Source: a virus. Taken from it: 24,412 nucleotides of DNA. The notes below the pieces were generated by a model, which did no database searches, was not told the DNA's origin, and saw nothing but the letters and a program-made list of their open reading frames with translations. Below, piece after piece: positions 3,172-20,027 of this stretch. How positions within the stretch are numbered: the stretch's first letter is position 1; each line of letters starts with the position of its first letter. A program made the position numbers and the translations under genes. The stretch lies in IMG/VR virus record IMGVR_UViG_3300043399_000685, positions 1 to 24,412 of that record. One strand, 5' to 3'.

Positions 3172-3195
3172 AGCACATAATTAAGTTTATGTGCT
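3172..3195 (+). promoter_or_regulatory. Hairpin masking the start codon of the Vsr-like endonuclease gene
   Basis: A perfect 9-bp stem (AGCACATAA at 3172-3180 with TTATGTGCT at 3187-3195, loop TTAAGT) contains the ATG at 3189-3191 in its 3' arm. Read-through RNA from the 47/46 operon would fold so that the start is hidden. T4 I-TevI is controlled in a comparable way, by a hairpin that occludes translation in early transcripts. That this hairpin is regulatory is inference. Confidence 0.55.
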
Positions 3196-4043
3196 GGTAT
3201 CATAATAACATCTTAATTGAATCATTACCCGAAAACTGTGTTGACTATATGAATATCAATCTTGCACAATCTTTACTAAAAGACTTGAATCGGAGGTCCG
3301 TAAATCAAGTCTTAATAAGTAAACTCGGAAATAAAACAACTTATTGTCAGCAGTTTATTGAAATATTAAAATCTACAAACATACCATTTAATGACAATTC
3401 ACTAACGGAAACAAAATGGCGAATTCTTAATTTAGATTTTTCTAAAAAAACATGTTTAAACTGTAAAAAGCCTGTAAAATTTGTAAGTTTATACAAGGGA
3501 TTTCGTCAGTACTGCTCAGGAACTTGTAGATCAAAAAATCGAGATAAAGAAACTATCAAAGGATGGGCTACTTCCGCAGGAAGGCTTGTTCGGCAAGAGA
3601 CATTTCGCAACCGCTACGGAGTAGAACATCAACTCCACATACCGGAAGTTTTTGAGAAGCAACAAAATAACAGATATAAAACATATTCAATATTTTCCCC
3701 ATCGGGTAAAGAATTTAAAGTACAAGGATACGAAAGATTCGTTATACCGATGCTTTGGAGAGAATATCAAGAAGATGATTTAATTATTCAGAAGAAAAAT
3801 CTTCCAAAAATTGATTACATTTATCAGGGAAAAATTAGAAAATATTATCCAGATTGCAGTATATTATCCGAAAATATAATATGTGAGATTAAATCTACCT
3901 ATACCATAAAATCCGAGACATTAATACCTAAAATGAAAGCATGTGCAGAGGCGGGGTATATACCTAAAGTGTATTTGTACGATAACGGTAATATTTCAAT
4001 ATTTTCTCTAGAGGATGTCCAAAACTATCTATCAAATTTATGA
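3189..4043 (+). CDS. Vsr-like (EDxHD / I-Bth0305I-type) homing endonuclease
   Basis: A putative free-standing homing endonuclease of 284 aa. Regions in order: a short leader (residues 1-14, MCWYHNN...LP) shared with the next gene; a four-cysteine zinc-like module (C89, C92, C109, C113); an RNRYGVEH motif (140-147) typical of DNA-binding segments in phage homing enzymes; and a PD-(D/E)XK/Vsr-like core with E182 in GYERF, D222 in YYPD and E233-x-K235 in CEIKS. The metal-site spacing fits a single-motif nuclease, but I do not assign the exact catalytic set. The stop overlaps the next gene by 4 bases. Its start codon lies in a hairpin, which suggests restricted translation. It probably entered as a mobile gene after the recombination operon. 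Confidence 0.75.
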   Translation: MCWYHNNILIESLPENCVDYMNINLAQSLLKDLNRRSVNQVLISKLGNKTTYCQQFIEILKSTNIPFNDNSLTETKWRILNLDFSKKTCLNCKKPVKFVSLYKGFRQYCSGTCRSKNRDKETIKGWATSAGRLVRQETFRNRYGVEHQLHIPEVFEKQQNNRYKTYSIFSPSGKEFKVQGYERFVIPMLWREYQEDDLIIQKKNLPKIDYIYQGKIRKYYPDCSILSENIICEIKSTYTIKSETLIPKMKACAEAGYIPKVYLYDNGNISIFSLEDVQNYLSNL

Positions 4044-4495
4044 CATGGATGTATAATAATAACATTGTCGAGCATATACCACCTGGCTCCATCGGGTTTG
4101 TTTATATCATAACAAATTTAACAAATAATAAGAAGTATATCGGAAAAAAATTATTTTTGTTTTCCAAAACTACCTATAAAGTTGTAAAACTTAAAAATGG
4201 TACCAAAAAGAAAAAGAAAATCCGTAGCAAAATAGATTCCGACTGGCAGGAATACTATGGTTCAAGCGAAGCGTTATCTAAAGACGTCCAAGAACAGGGC
4301 GCAGAGAATTTTAAACGCGAAATTCTCTACTACTGCAGTTCAAAATCAGAATGCAGCTATCTCGAAGCTCGAGAGCAGTTTGACCGACGCGTGCTCGAGT
4401 CTGACGAATACTATAACGGACATGTTCAGGTGAGAGTTCATAAAAATCACGTTTTTGGCAAAATTTCCAACTTGACAAACACTCTTCTAAGTTAG
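4040..4495 (+). CDS. GIY-YIG family homing endonuclease (Seg-like)
   Basis: A 151-aa protein with an N-terminal GIY-YIG nuclease domain. FVYIITN (20-26) and KKYIGKK form the two strands carrying the GIY and YIG tyrosines. A basic loop follows (KNGTKKKKKIRSK), then YLEAREQF with the likely catalytic Glu and YYNGHVQVR with the conserved Asn. Residues 1-14 (MTWMYNNNIVEHIP) match the leader of the upstream Vsr-like protein although the nuclease folds are unrelated. The start overlaps the upstream stop in ATGA, so the two nucleases form a translationally coupled pair. The last codons contain the -35 and most of the -10 region of a sigma70 promoter for the downstream unit. Confidence 0.85.
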   Translation: MTWMYNNNIVEHIPPGSIGFVYIITNLTNNKKYIGKKLFLFSKTTYKVVKLKNGTKKKKKIRSKIDSDWQEYYGSSEALSKDVQEQGAENFKREILYYCSSKSECSYLEAREQFDRRVLESDEYYNGHVQVRVHKNHVFGKISNLTNTLLS

Positions 4496-4501
4496 TATAA
4501 T
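4472..4501 (+). promoter_or_regulatory. Consensus sigma70 promoter (TTGACA-N18-TATAAT)
   Basis: TTGACA at 4472-4477 and TATAAT at 4496-4501 match the host-type consensus at all 12 positions, with an 18-base spacer and an A/T-rich stretch just upstream. The start site would fall near 4508. It would drive the 58-aa gene and the long hairpin-rich region after it with unmodified host polymerase, that is, early in infection. Most other promoter-like sites in the window are T4 late type, so this one stands out. Confidence 0.8.
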
Positions 4502-4597
4502 AGCAATATCTTAACCAAGATCTGCATTTTATTTTAGATTCACTTCTGCAGCCCTTGATTATATGCGTAGTTAAATACTACACATTAGGATTTCAGT

Positions 4598-4774
4598 ATG
4601 AGACAGTATTACAAAGAATACGCCTATACTAGAATGCCCTGGGGAAAGTTTAAAGGGGTGTATCTAAAGGACATTCCAGATGATTATTTGAAGTGGGCAG
4701 CAGTCAATTGGAGAGATCAGGCAACTGCAACAATGTTTAGAATAGAACTAACTCGAAGAAATATCAAAATTTAA
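4598..4774 (+). CDS. DUF3820-type small protein
   Basis: A 58-aa ORF starting MRQYYKEYAY. The core MPWGKFKG-x-YLKDIPDDYLKW matches the pattern of DUF3820 (QSregVF-type) proteins, MPFGKYKGxxLxDxPxxYLxWL, which are common in phages and bacteria. The function is unknown; family members have been loosely linked to nucleic-acid metabolism by co-occurrence. It lies about 90 bases downstream of the predicted start of the consensus sigma70 promoter. Its leader holds small hairpins (4508-4521; 4567-4581, GTAGT/ACTAC). No strong Shine-Dalgarno site is visible, only AGGA about 8 bases upstream. It is the only recognisable gene in the 4496-5406 interval. Confidence 0.75.
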   Translation: MRQYYKEYAYTRMPWGKFKGVYLKDIPDDYLKWAAVNWRDQATATMFRIELTRRNIKI

Positions 4775-5356
4775 ACTCAGGCATTACAGTTGAATAAAAG
4801 GCAAAAATTAGGCATCATAACTACGCAAGAGGAAAAGCGTAGTATAGGCAAACAGCAGTAATAGCTAGCACCGGCTAATTTCGGGTGTACGAACAATAAG
4901 CAAAGGGTAAGAATATACCTGGACCGGAAATCCTCTAGCTGCATGAGGTACTTAGCGACTATCCTTAACAGGACGATGATTGGACATGCCTTCCCATACA
5001 ACCAATTTCGCTATTTGAAGAACTTTTTTACTCCCAAGGCTAAAGGATGTAGGGCTTAACACGCTCCTACAGCGTTATACAATAAGACAGTGTTTATTAT
5101 ATAGCGTGCCGTTGAAACAAGACAGGATGAGCAGGTACCGGTCAACCGCCTGCGCAATAGATTATATGCAATTATAGTCAATTATAGTCCTAACGCTGTG
5201 TGGTTGTGCGACTCAGATGAGAACCCCAAACATTTCTTAGCCCGCCAGGGCTAAGTGTGGCTGATTAATCTAGATGAGTATATTATTAAATGCTCTGCTT
5301 GCTGCTGTAAATAATATTAAAGAAAAGAAAAATAGCTGTGAACGCTAGTGAACAGC
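4775..5356 (+). ncRNA. Candidate large structured phage RNA (no gene, hairpin-rich)
   Basis: About 580 bases with no credible coding frame on either strand. The sequence contains many local stems: ACTACGC/GCGTAGT (4820-4826 with 4837-4843); CCTC/GAGG (4932-4948); TGTAGG/CCTACA extended by GC pairs (5048-5071); GCAGG/CCTGC enclosing a CGG-TCAA-CCG hairpin (5131-5153); and an 8-bp CTTAGCCC/GGGCTAAG stem with a GCCA loop (5236-5255). CACGCT (5060-5065) can also pair with AGCGTG (5103-5108), an alternative or pseudoknot-like fold. A 10-base unit AATTATAGTC is tandemly repeated at 5170-5189. It is downstream of a consensus sigma70 promoter. Large phage RNAs such as GOLLD are a known precedent, but I cannot assign this one to a class. 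Ends are approximate. Confidence 0.5.
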
Positions 5357-5376
5357 AGAAGAACGTAAGTTCTTCT
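5357..5376 (+). terminator. Hairpin ending the RNA region (possible terminator or processing site)
   Basis: A perfect 8-bp stem AGAAGAAC/GTTCTTCT closed by a GTAA (GNRA-type) loop, followed by a short TTT run. It separates the hairpin-rich region from the late-promoter-like box of the next gene. It is A/T-rich with a weak U-tract, so a processing or stabilising hairpin is as likely as a terminator. Confidence 0.4.
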
Positions 5377-5406: not shown

Positions 5407-6633
5407 ATGAAAGTTTATGAGATAGTACGAGAAGAAAGATTAGATGAAATAGGACCTGCTGCTATTCCTATAATAGGTGGTCTTACATGGGCTGGAGTAG
5501 TGGGTGCTGTTAGTTTATTTTTAACTACTATATCAGTGATAGACATCTATAAGATTTTAGAAAAAAACAATTACGATCTTGCAAGCATGTCCGATGAAGA
5601 TTGGAAAGATGTATTTTTAGATCTAATCATGTTATCTGTTCCTGGTGCCGGTAACTTCACAAAATCCGCAATCAGAAAACTTATTCCAGATTCTTGGCTA
5701 CTCAGTGCAGCTAACAAAGCAAGGCTTCAGATTTTATCCAGAGCTAGAGCAGGAACAGCTGCTGCTAACCCGGCTCGTCTCTCTAGACTTAAAAAATTAG
5801 CTGATGCTAGATATGCTAAGATCGCATCAAACGTTAAAAATGTTTTAGTGACTGCAGGATTAGCGTCAGTTGTCGCTACATATTTTTATAAATTGGAAGA
5901 CCTGGAAGATCAATATGAAGCTGCCAAATCAGGAGATACTACCACCGAGTTATTTGGTAACGCTAGCCAATCGGAGCTTGTTGGATTAGCTGACAGGCAA
6001 CGAACCCGGTTACTAGGAGAACTAACATTAAGCATTGCAGGGATTTTAGGCGCATTAACTGGCGCGGCTGCTATTAAAACCTTAACTTCCTTATTTGGTT
6101 CGGTCAAAGGCGGCTCCGTGGTAGGCGGATTGCTGTCAATACCGGCTGCTGGACTATCTAAACTAGCAACAATCGGCGCAGCTGCCTGGCCTATACTGTT
6201 ACACACACAGGCAGGTCAAGAATTCTTGTCCAACAACATAGTTCGCATGATAACTGGCGGTACCGGTGCAACCGTCTCCTGGGGTATAGAAAAACTTTAC
6301 CAAGCAATTGAAGAAGTCAGCAAACGAGTCGGACTCGATGCAACCGGAGTCACTGGAGCAATGAGATCCACAATTGCTACAGATAAAGCAGCAACTCCAA
6401 ATCGCATTCAACAGGCAATGGCGTCTAAGATTCCCTATACTCTTAGACTTGAAAAAGATAATGCAAACCCAAATATTCTTTACATTGGTGGTGTGCAGGT
6501 TACTGATAAGGATGGGTTCCAAAGTGTTGGAAACAGCTACAAGCAAATGTTATCTAAACAGGCAGTTGCCAGTAATGTACCTGATCCCACAACCGGCTTA
6601 AAACCTAAACCGGGTGTGAATTATAATTATTAA
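5407..6633 (+). CDS. Hydrophobic multi-segment protein with amphipathic leader, unknown function
   Basis: A 408-aa protein from the ATG preceded by TTAGGA; a GTG at 5338 would add 23 residues but lies inside the upstream hairpin region. The N-terminus, MKVYEIVREERLDEI, resembles the short leaders of T4 internal proteins that target them into the prohead and are cut by gp21 after L/I-x-E; LDE is at 12-14. Long apolar segments follow at about 17-48, 143-161, 205-230 and 237-265, rich in Gly and Ala, with a polar C-terminal part after 330. This would fit a virion protein injected with DNA or one acting on membranes, but no family is recognised. The stop overlaps the convergent stop of the minus-strand gene. 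Confidence 0.65.
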   Translation: MKVYEIVREERLDEIGPAAIPIIGGLTWAGVVGAVSLFLTTISVIDIYKILEKNNYDLASMSDEDWKDVFLDLIMLSVPGAGNFTKSAIRKLIPDSWLLSAANKARLQILSRARAGTAAANPARLSRLKKLADARYAKIASNVKNVLVTAGLASVVATYFYKLEDLEDQYEAAKSGDTTTELFGNASQSELVGLADRQRTRLLGELTLSIAGILGALTGAAAIKTLTSLFGSVKGGSVVGGLLSIPAAGLSKLATIGAAAWPILLHTQAGQEFLSNNIVRMITGGTGATVSWGIEKLYQAIEEVSKRVGLDATGVTGAMRSTIATDKAATPNRIQQAMASKIPYTLRLEKDNANPNILYIGGVQVTDKDGFQSVGNSYKQMLSKQAVASNVPDPTTGLKPKPGVNYNY

Positions 6634-17880: not shown

Positions 17881-17909
17881 TTGACTTAATTTTATTTTTA
17901 ATGTATTAT
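17881..17909 (+). promoter_or_regulatory. Near-consensus sigma70 promoter before the HNH gene (TTGACT-N17-TATTAT)
   Basis: TTGACT (17881-17886) and TATTAT (17904-17909), 17 bases apart, match 10 of 12 consensus positions, immediately after the gene 23 terminator. The start would be near 17916. It would let the HNH gene be expressed early, independent of capsid transcription. Confidence 0.55.
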
Positions 17910-17923
17910 GTTGAGTTATCGAA

Positions 17924-17931
17924 TATAAATA
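17924..17931 (+). promoter_or_regulatory. T4-type late promoter (TATAAATA) before the HNH gene
   Basis: Exact consensus. The predicted start is about 17937, which is the A of the HNH ATG, so transcripts from it would be leaderless. Together with the sigma70-type promoter just upstream, the gene has both early and late signals. Confidence 0.6.
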
Positions 17932-17936
17932 AAGTT

Positions 17937-18704
17937 ATGAACAAATACAAAAAATGGTATGTAGCTATTACAACTGTAGGAAAAGCACTTAGAGATGGTT
18001 ATACAGAAAAACATCACATACTGCCAAAAAGTCTAGGCGGCGATGATTCCATTGAAAATTTAACTGATTTAACTGCCCGCGAACATTTTATATGCCATTG
18101 GTTATTAACAAAAATATACCCTACCGGTGAAGCACACTGGAAAATGATTAACGCATTTAGAATGATGCAAGCAGAAAATTCCCGCCAACAACGATATAAA
18201 ACAAAAGTTACAGCTAGAGTATATGAAAATTTGAAAGAAGAATACTCTATGTTACAAAGTGAACGATACTCTGGCGAGAAAAATCCTATGTACGGAGACA
18301 AATTTTACCGTAGTGCAGAAGGAACAGAAAGACAACGAGCAGCAGTTACCGGTGAAAATAACGGTGCTAAACAACTAGAGGCAAGAGCGAAGATATCTGC
18401 CAGTAAATTAGGAAAAAAACGCAAGCCTTTTTCTAAAGAATGGAGAGGAAAGTTATCTGCTTCTAAACAAGGAGAAAATAATAATAGATTTGGGATTAAT
18501 GTATCAGAAGATACAAAGAAAAAGATAAGTGAATCATTGTCTGGGCGAAAACAAGATCCGGAAGTAGTTGTGCGTCGAGCAGAAACACAGCGGGCTTTAA
18601 ATATGAAACGAGAAAAGAAGCAGTGCCCTCATTGCAATCAGTTAGTTGCAGTTAATGGATATGCTAGATGGCACGGGGATAATTGTAAACTTAAAACGGA
18701 ATAA
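17937..18704 (+). CDS. HNH homing endonuclease with NUMOD3-like repeats and C-terminal zinc finger
   Basis: A 255-aa protein from the ATG at 17937; an upstream ATG at 17901 would lie inside the promoter. HNH motif: EKHHILPKSLGG (H26, H27), N41 in IENLTDL, and H50 in REHF. Two or three NUMOD3-like DNA-binding segments follow (GEKNPMYG near 100, ISASKLGKK and LSASKQGENNNRFG, ISESLSGRK). It ends with a C-x2-C-x12-H-x3-C zinc finger (C230, C233, H246, C250, with YARWHG), also present in the antisense GIY-YIG protein downstream. It sits between the two copies of the gene 23 3' end and is probably the enzyme that mobilises this cassette. No strong Shine-Dalgarno site. Confidence 0.9.
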   Translation: MNKYKKWYVAITTVGKALRDGYTEKHHILPKSLGGDDSIENLTDLTAREHFICHWLLTKIYPTGEAHWKMINAFRMMQAENSRQQRYKTKVTARVYENLKEEYSMLQSERYSGEKNPMYGDKFYRSAEGTERQRAAVTGENNGAKQLEARAKISASKLGKKRKPFSKEWRGKLSASKQGENNNRFGINVSEDTKKKISESLSGRKQDPEVVVRRAETQRALNMKREKKQCPHCNQLVAVNGYARWHGDNCKLKTE

Positions 18705-19301: not shown

Positions 19302-19354
19302 CTCGTTTAACACGAGACTTATGCTGTAACCCCGCAGCGTAGACCTAAAACGTC
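19302..19354 (+). ncRNA. Three-hairpin RNA motif, copy A (truncated)
   Basis: Three hairpins in a row: CTCG/CGAG with loop TTTAACA (19302-19316); TATGCTG/CAGCGTA with a loop containing CCCC (19320-19341); and GAC/GTC with loop CTAAAAC (19342-19354). The same order, loop features and stem lengths recur at 20046-20099, with compensatory changes in hairpins 1 and 2. A U-G pair here becomes C-G there, which supports the plus strand as the RNA. The 3' strand of the outer stem seen in copy B is missing, exactly where the antisense endonuclease gene begins. Confidence 0.6.
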
Positions 19355-20027
19355 AACCTAAATTTTTACATTTAGTTCCGTGCCATCTTGTATAAATCGA
19401 ATCAGCTACATCTTTACCGCAGTGCTCGCATATTTTACGAGGATGCTTATATCCTGTTAATGTTTCTTTAATTTTATTTTTAACTCCTGGTAAATTAACA
19501 GGATTATCGATTTTTAACTTTTCACTTCTTAAAATCTTGTTGTGTAAAAAATTATTAGGATTCATTTCGCTATTCATTCGCGTTCGATGCTGTTGCGCCG
19601 ATGCAGTTTTTTGATTAGTCCAATGCATTTCCCCTTTTTGGTATTTTCTAAATTTTTGAATTTTAGCCCACTTTTCGGGATTCTTTCTAGTCCAGTGTTG
19701 ATCTCCTTTTGGAACTAATGTAATATCAAACGCAATAGTATTATGTCCGTTCAACCATTTCTCTTTATTAATGACGTTTAATTTTAATAGAACTCTATGC
19801 TCCCATACTCTTGCTTCGTTAACGCTGTTAAATGTACGACGAACAATTCGAATATCGGGCTCTCCGTGATCTTTAATAAATTTTAATACTATCTTACTTG
19901 ATGTCTTATACGGATTCCACAAGTCAGTTGGATGGCAATTCTTAGAATATCGAACGCCGTAATACCAACGATTTAAATCTGACCATCCGATTAGGTAAGT
20001 GTAAGGAGTATTCATCTTAATATACAT
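19353..20027 (-). CDS. Antisense GIY-YIG homing endonuclease with C-terminal zinc finger
   Basis: A 224-aa protein on the minus strand, between the two RNA motif copies. GIY-YIG core: YLIG (11-14), WYYGVR (21-26), then VNEARVWEH (likely catalytic Glu) and KWLNG (Asn93). A basic linker with repeated W-T/K motifs (QHWTRKNPEKW, MHWTNQK) and a NUMOD-like KIKETLTGYKHP lead to a C-x2-C-x12-H-x3-C finger (C200, C203, H216, C220; YTRWHG), the same module as in the HNH protein. A second ATG at 20015 (MNTPYTYLIG) is possible; no good Shine-Dalgarno site is seen for either. A minus-strand late promoter lies at 20118-20111. Confidence 0.85.
   Translation of the reverse strand: MYIKMNTPYTYLIGWSDLNRWYYGVRYSKNCHPTDLWNPYKTSSKIVLKFIKDHGEPDIRIVRRTFNSVNEARVWEHRVLLKLNVINKEKWLNGHNTIAFDITLVPKGDQHWTRKNPEKWAKIQKFRKYQKGEMHWTNQKTASAQQHRTRMNSEMNPNNFLHNKILRSEKLKIDNPVNLPGVKNKIKETLTGYKHPRKICEHCGKDVADSIYTRWHGTKCKNLG

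Follow-up and report, generated by a model that had tools for sequence, protein, structure and literature searches.

A conserved pseudoknotted RNA with matched direct repeats in giant T4-like phages: a possible replication-origin transcript

Replication of the plasmid ColE1 is primed by RNA II, a folded RNA of ~550 nt that hybridises to the template DNA and in which a G-rich loop is paired to a C-rich stretch. At the origins of phage T4, transcripts form R-loops and prime the leading strand, for which the clamp loader is needed, and transcript priming in ColE1 is mentioned in the same account (PMC3016281). The large ornate RNAs GOLLD and ROOL are described as assembling into homo-oligomeric complexes (PMC12286853). 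The motif Polynucleobacter-1 (Rfam RF01718) dates from a 2010 survey of 104 candidate RNAs, where its listing gives it as possibly cis-regulatory and from fresh water (Weinberg et al. 2010, PMC2864571); no later literature on this motif, or on the RNA presented here, was found. The locus compared with these systems lies in a 24.4-kb virus record with T4-type genes, analysed over its whole length of 24,412 nt (the window). Its gp47/46-like, portal and capsid genes were read from the ORFs.

A folded RNA in a gene-free stretch

The preliminary description of the window had pointed to a gene-poor, stem-rich stretch downstream of a small DUF3820 gene as a candidate large phage RNA, and rightly so. 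No ORF longer than 74 aa lies inside 4775-5337, and between DUF3820 and the gene starting at 5407 the sole exception is an upstream GTG extension. That this stretch specifies a structured RNA under conservation is near certain. The RNA is ~440-520 nt long and comprises a core body of ~438 nt and two 3′ hairpins that extend to ~5376 (Table 1). A cmscan of the whole window returned a single family, RF01718, whose match spans model positions 1-141, i.e. the entire covariance model. Scores in homologues reach 121 bits, and when the window and 15 homologous loci were scanned against Rfam, RF01718 was the sole family above its cut-off. The earlier description could match the RNA to no class; Rfam covers its first third. 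No group I or group II intron was matched in Rfam at E values up to 5, and the RNA does not lie inside a gene. Terminator-like T-runs are not clearly enriched at the 3′ tail (14 of 150 vs 8 in shuffled sequences).

Covariation was evaluated by a G-test with average-product correction on 155 dereplicated sequences, and supports 14 helices with 76 pairs, including two pseudoknots, PK1 and PK2. Standard pairs occupy 93.2% of the cells of these pairs in the 155 homologues, vs 76.8% in shuffled and 36-42% in slid versions, the last comparison being biased in favour of the helices because they were picked on the same alignment as that on which they were tested. Cells with double changes number 1847, compared with at most 568 in the shuffles. 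Thus, the stems noted earlier are real and conserved, and the proposed comparison with related phages yields shared sequence and covarying helices. The paired cells contain G.U 1308 times and A.C 147 times, an excess which argues that the + strand RNA is under selection, rather than folded DNA or the other strand.

Table 1 Features of the RNA and its surroundings in the window.
Feature	Position	Strand	Evidence
gp26-like baseplate protein gene			PF12322
SegE-like GIY-YIG endonuclease gene	4040-4495	+	PF19835, 9.1e-33
Consensus sigma70 promoter, TTGACA-N18-TATAAT	4472-4501	+	12/12 consensus positions
DUF3820 gene	4598-4774	+	PF12843
RNA body, profile-defined	4857-5294	+	155 dereplicated sequences aligned; profile matches at 270/294 loci
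RF01718 Polynucleobacter-1 match, RNA 5′ domain	4863-5016	+	75.1 bits, gathering score 37, E 1.6e-14
5′ hairpin	4868-4872/4884-4888	+	98.5% paired; both-side changes in 5/5 pairs
Helix enclosing the next hairpin	4953-4958/5008-5013	+	96.6% paired; double changes in 5/6 pairs
Enclosed hairpin	4978-4983/4994-5007	+	94.9% paired; double changes in 4/6 pairs
Long hairpin, loop 5087-5092 enters PK1	5073-5106	+	Double changes in 12/13 pairs
Pseudoknot PK1	5087-5092/5194-5199	+	97% paired; double changes in 6/6
Pseudoknot PK2, GTTGA/TCAAC	5111-5115/5142-5146	+	99.2% paired
Closing helix	5125-5129/5185-5190	+	Three strongest-ranked covarying Watson-Crick pairs but one
Direct repeat 1, ACTCAGATGAG	5211-5221	+	Identical-letter covariation with repeat 2
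GC hairpin between repeats, TTAGCCC/GGGCTAA	5237-5253	+	94.1% paired
Direct repeat 2, ATCTAGATGAG	5268-5278	+	Identical-letter covariation with repeat 1
Two 3′ tail hairpins	5335-5376	+	GCTGT/ACAGC; AGAAGAAC/GTTCTTCT; same kind recurs downstream of homologues

PK1 also occurs in copies of the RNA in bacterial islands, and cultured jumbo phages have it in the equivalent topological position. The 3′ partner of PK2 sits in the loop of the hairpin 5131-5136/5148-5152, and its counterpart in the cultured phages is GTTg/cAAC. PK1 and PK2 take the place of the tertiary pairing of 5060-5065 with 5103-5108 suggested before, which overlaps a covarying hairpin and is absent in homologues (L004 is without it).

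The consensus promoter that was thought to drive the region is itself real. However, it lies ~360 nt 5′ of the RNA, overlapping the end of the SegE gene, and no promoter enrichment was found within 150 nt upstream of the RNA homologues of the window clade, such that it does not stand as a conserved driver. The DUF3820 gene is an insertion between SegE and the RNA that is particular to the small clade of the window; gene cluster 14, taken to be this gene, is adjacent upstream in only 6 of the 155 loci. A sequence resembling a T4 late promoter, TTAAATACT, is located just before DUF3820 (4560-4597) and recurs in the relatives of this gene.

Distribution and neighbouring genes

Four homologues fetched via the DUF3820 gene all have the RNA just downstream, aligned over ~430 nt. 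Two sequence patterns, from the 5′ and 3′ parts of the RNA, were each found in at least 120 viral contigs, these counts being lower bounds. The RNA profile matches 270 of 294 fetched loci, and the RNA is present in 70 of the 80 loci fetched by the gp26 protein only. The gp26-fetched contigs lacking it stop 12-1400 nt past gp26, the exception being L068, with a divergent member. The usual position is between gp46 and gp26, and RF01718 detects one copy per genome in all 30 contigs tested, each 91-400 kb long. A nucleotide search of 50,697 phage records gave no member. The RNA is a single-copy core element, at a fixed site, of a large clade of giant T4-like phages, and a motif orphaned for 16 years is a fragment of a large RNA kept by most of that clade.

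In 132 of the 155 loci the gene next to the RNA on its upstream side is SegE, and in 131 of these the SegE stop codon falls between -12 and +60 nt relative to the RNA start. This adjacency would suit an RNA that guides the GIY-YIG endonuclease next door or serves as its cofactor, like the omega RNA of TnpB/IscB, yet such a role is very improbable. The pairwise distances of the RNA correlate with those of gp46 (0.53) and gp26 (0.43) more closely than with those of SegE (0.22), no SegE was seen near the island copies, and none of the cultured copies adjoins a SegE annotation. A TnpB/IscB-type guide RNA was rejected accordingly, as the adjacent nuclease is not co-inherited and its distances do not track those of the RNA. 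Since RNA distances follow gp46 and gp26 better, we read SegE as a probable homing endonuclease that settled beside a conserved site, which would explain the linkage. Four homing-endonuclease-like genes are found within 24 kb in the window (3189-4043, 4040-4495, 17901-18704 and 19353-20027). The SegE protein matches PHROG 447, whose label, NAD synthetase, looks misannotated.

On the other side of the RNA, loci vary both in the family of the downstream gene and in its strand. A 5′ leader regulating the downstream gene is suggested by the possibly cis-regulatory marking of the motif (Weinberg et al. 2010, PMC2864571), but this variation makes it the least probable of the readings weighed here, and a cis-regulatory leader was rejected as there is no conserved same-strand downstream gene.

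The RNA is also found in a Burkholderiaceae genus with genomes of ~2 Mb, where 19 of 186 genomes carry it, some in two copies; judging by the name of the Rfam family, this genus is probably Polynucleobacter. In all 26 island loci the RNA is divergent to a DUF6641 gene, and a core-only tyrosine recombinase is located downstream in most loci of sufficient length. The elements contain two integrases and a phage/T4-type clamp-loader ATPase, and some contain tRNA-end repeats. PK1 can form in the island copies and varies consistently. DUF6641 was rejected as a partner of the RNA, being absent from 25 phage records; in genome G235, which has three DUF6641 genes and one RNA copy, the other two neighbourhoods (L405 and L406) are RNA-free by both profile and repeat signature. 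Matches to one conserved 19-mer in bacterial genome contigs were set aside as chance, at ~15 bits or less.

Two further features of the islands were observed. The palindrome TGTCGTTTTAAACGACA (TGTCCTTTTAAAGGACA in other islands) has many copies in and around the islands (L322, L324, L326 and L327), for example at 5246, 5470, 13668, 14902, 16131 and 17724 of L322, and has the look of an operator whose half-sites are specific to each element. Sequences similar to a tRNA 3′ end (TTGGTGGCCCGGGGCGGAATCGAACCACC) lie in tandem in L323, L324 and L327, as in stacked integrations at one tRNA gene.

Direct repeats that change in lockstep

The 3′ part of the RNA contains two direct repeats, with units ACTC-N4-RA (5211) and ATCT-N4-RA (5268). 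The CTC/TCT differences between them remain fixed. At three pairs of repeat columns, separated by 54 positions, the two letters covary by being the same rather than complementary, in 154, 155 and 155 of the 155 sequences. The letters are A/A in 73, G/G in 81 and mixed in 1 at the first column, A/A in 85 and G/G in 70 at the second, and G/G in 146, C/C in 8 and A/A in 1 at the third. On a tree built without the repeat columns, the first repeat site shows 32 changes in repeat 1 and 33 in repeat 2, with joint change in 18 of 18 independent supported pairs (p 7.6e-6). The two-repeat signature alone led to the divergent members L068 and L170, and has 241 matches in RNAs and 3 outside them in 2.6 Mb. 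Repeats are present in 25 island copies, with the four core letters equal in 22, one mismatch in 1 and two mismatches in 2, and their cores are diverse (AGCG, AACA, AGAG, ATCA, GGCG and GGAG). It is unusual for an RNA locus to contain identical repeats that change in lockstep, and this calls for a mechanistic explanation. Neither the RNA, nor the surrounding 2.5 kb, nor eight contigs 107-155 kb long yielded a strand complementary to the repeats, and a search for chromosomal targets of the repeats in Polynucleobacter gave background matches only.

Relatives of gp26 led to cultured jumbo phages. In PBECO4, GAP32 and BF, a gene-free gap of ~800 bp between gp26 and endonuclease VII/gp46 holds a conserved, unannotated RNA on the strand opposite gp26. 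RNAs of this type occur in 31 phage records, in several places each. Unannotated copies that match in architecture exist in cultured jumbo phages of E. coli, Cronobacter, Serratia, Erwinia and Salmonella. Their paired cells amount to 97.1%, vs 73.5% in shuffled sequences. The order of elements is that of the window RNA: the hairpin with the loop pseudoknot, the GTTg strand, the closing helix, the cAAC-loop hairpin, the PK1 partner, repeat 1, the GC hairpin and repeat 2. Identity covariation between the two direct repeats is again the top signal of its kind. No Rfam family covers the cultured RNAs, RF01718 and the window-clade profile have no match in the cultured phages PA5oct, Atu_ph07 and BF, and the window-clade and cultured profiles do not cross-match. 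The cultured relative was found by synteny only, and its homology to the window RNA is inferred from architecture and synteny.

Gene-poor gaps near gp26 are also seen in Phosso (L412, 7233-8246), RAS14 (L414, 7804-8623), XacN1 (L413, 7842-8350) and PA5oct (L294, 3102-4616); matched by neither profile, they may hold further relatives. In the Erwinia phage Kaldavass (L418, 3571-4214), three small hypothetical proteins, probably spurious, are annotated over the RNA.

The cultured genomes carry several copies, all on one strand: five in GAP32, BF, XbC2, Munch and XaC1, and four in PBECO4. The copies are widely spaced, with minimum-gap simulation p values of 0.004, 0.005, 0.002, 0.0035, 0.07 and 0.046 for six genomes that are related and non-independent. 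The GAP32 copies differ from one another, with repeats ACCACCGTCAG/AACCCCGTCAG in L447 and TATCATCGTCAG/AAATCTCGTCAG in the others; the letters differ between copies and match within them, which indicates that equality is required within a copy and not across the genome. In the Munch copies the repeats mismatch at one column. A TATAAT-like -10 element is predicted upstream of 31 of 31 cultured copies. An intrinsic terminator is predicted between the repeats in 16 of the 31, in which case repeat 2 would fall outside the transcript, and in 4 of the 155 sequences of the window clade.

These observations bear on two further readings. The RNA could act in trans, as a regulator or decoy: in a stable phage ribonucleoprotein, its two identical sites would sequester a host or phage factor or base-pair with it. 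The presence in the cultured relatives of a separate RNA gene preceded by a strong -10 element, the extensive folding, and repeats resembling two copies of one binding site are all in keeping with this. However, one common partner fails to explain letters that match only within a copy, the eight large phage contigs are without a complementary site, and the even spacing of copies is left unexplained, so that we regard a role in trans as unlikely. Less likely still is a DNA-level element, i.e. a recombination, segregation or packaging site, with the transcript minor and the repeats serving as recombining or bound sites. Two equal short sites are typical of crossover regions, a tyrosine recombinase accompanies the RNA in the islands, and the copies are evenly spaced; but tolerance of G.U and not of A.C on the + strand (1308:147) shows selection on the RNA itself, the phage window showed no recombinase gene next to the RNA, and the repeats retain their fixed differences.

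A possible role at replication origins and comparison with known systems

The reading we favour, tentatively and from sequence comparison, is that the RNA is transcribed from a replication origin primed by RNA through an R-loop; the alternatives together are given about even odds. The sequences show the RNA with its fold and strand, its conservation, its lockstep repeats and the widely spaced same-strand copies in cultured relatives; R-loop formation, priming and origin activity are what we infer. The RNA would fold co-transcriptionally into its helices, PK1 and PK2, and the folded body would leave the 3′ part available. Repeats that are equal without a complement and seem to be needed in cis, with repeat 2 predicted to fall outside the transcript in many copies, point to pairing between repeat 1 of the RNA and the template strand of the DNA where its own locus has the identical repeat 2. 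This annealing would form an R-loop or relocate one.

The wide same-strand spacing of the four or five copies in the cultured relatives counts for an origin, as do the folded structure, the single-copy core status in the window clade, the -10 elements and inter-repeat terminators of the cultured copies, and repeats that are equal within a copy and have no complementary partner in the sequences searched. The clamp-loader gene and integrases near the island RNA are as expected of a satellite using a phage origin. GC skew is weak evidence: all 8 window-clade contigs (p 0.004) and 15 of 19 cultured copies show a rise downstream of the RNA, both values being raw, with gene orientation included, and inflated by shared synteny. 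XaC1 offers no support, and neither PBECO4 nor Munch reaches significance. The A-T percentile of the 200 nt downstream ranges from 0.51 to 0.96 (mean 0.75), and is unremarkable in half of the contigs. Counting against an origin are the single copy in window-clade contigs of up to 400 kb, the lack of a conserved promoter directly upstream in the window clade together with the rarity of terminators between the repeats there, and a link between cultured and window RNAs that consists of architecture and synteny with no profile match.

A broader proposal, which we hold with rather less confidence, is that these loci form a new class of origin in large phages and their satellites, in which one sequence tag lies within a folded RNA and a second, identical tag lies elsewhere in the locus that encodes it, pairing of the tag with the template places the R-loop and primes the leading strand, and a single jumbo genome has several such origins distributed along it. 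Should the loci prove to be origins, the open question of how R-loop formation is controlled at T4 origins (PMC3016281) would become testable in laboratory E. coli, and the presence of the same RNA in a bacterial integrative island would be explained.

Among known systems, GOLLD and ROOL resemble this RNA as large ornate RNAs of phages and related elements, with similar size, pseudoknots and phage location, and a large RNA working as they do, by forming homo-oligomers, may be considered. Nevertheless, such a role is improbable, since this RNA matches neither Rfam model, no family except RF01718 scores above cut-off, and the lockstep repeats are unexplained by it. ColE1 RNA II belongs to a plasmid, whereas this RNA belongs to phages and has direct repeats in place of the G-rich loop and C-rich pairing; no Rfam similarity between the two was found in the window or the 15 homologous loci, where RF01718 was the only family above its cut-off. 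RF01718 itself matches the first third of the RNA far above its gathering score, but the 141-nt model includes neither the 3′ two thirds with their pseudoknots nor the lockstep repeats. The motif's description in PMC2864571, as far as that listing goes, gives no phage association, length or function. The T4 origins oriF and oriG (PMC3016281) have a phage transcript from a sigma70-type -10 element, and an R-loop with leading-strand priming; for the present loci a transcript, R-loop and priming are proposed, and a TATAAT-like -10 precedes the cultured copies. However, minimal T4 origins are ~100 bp and their R-loops are independent of specific sequence (PMC3016281), whereas the present loci encode a folded, conserved RNA of ~440-520 nt with paired repeats.
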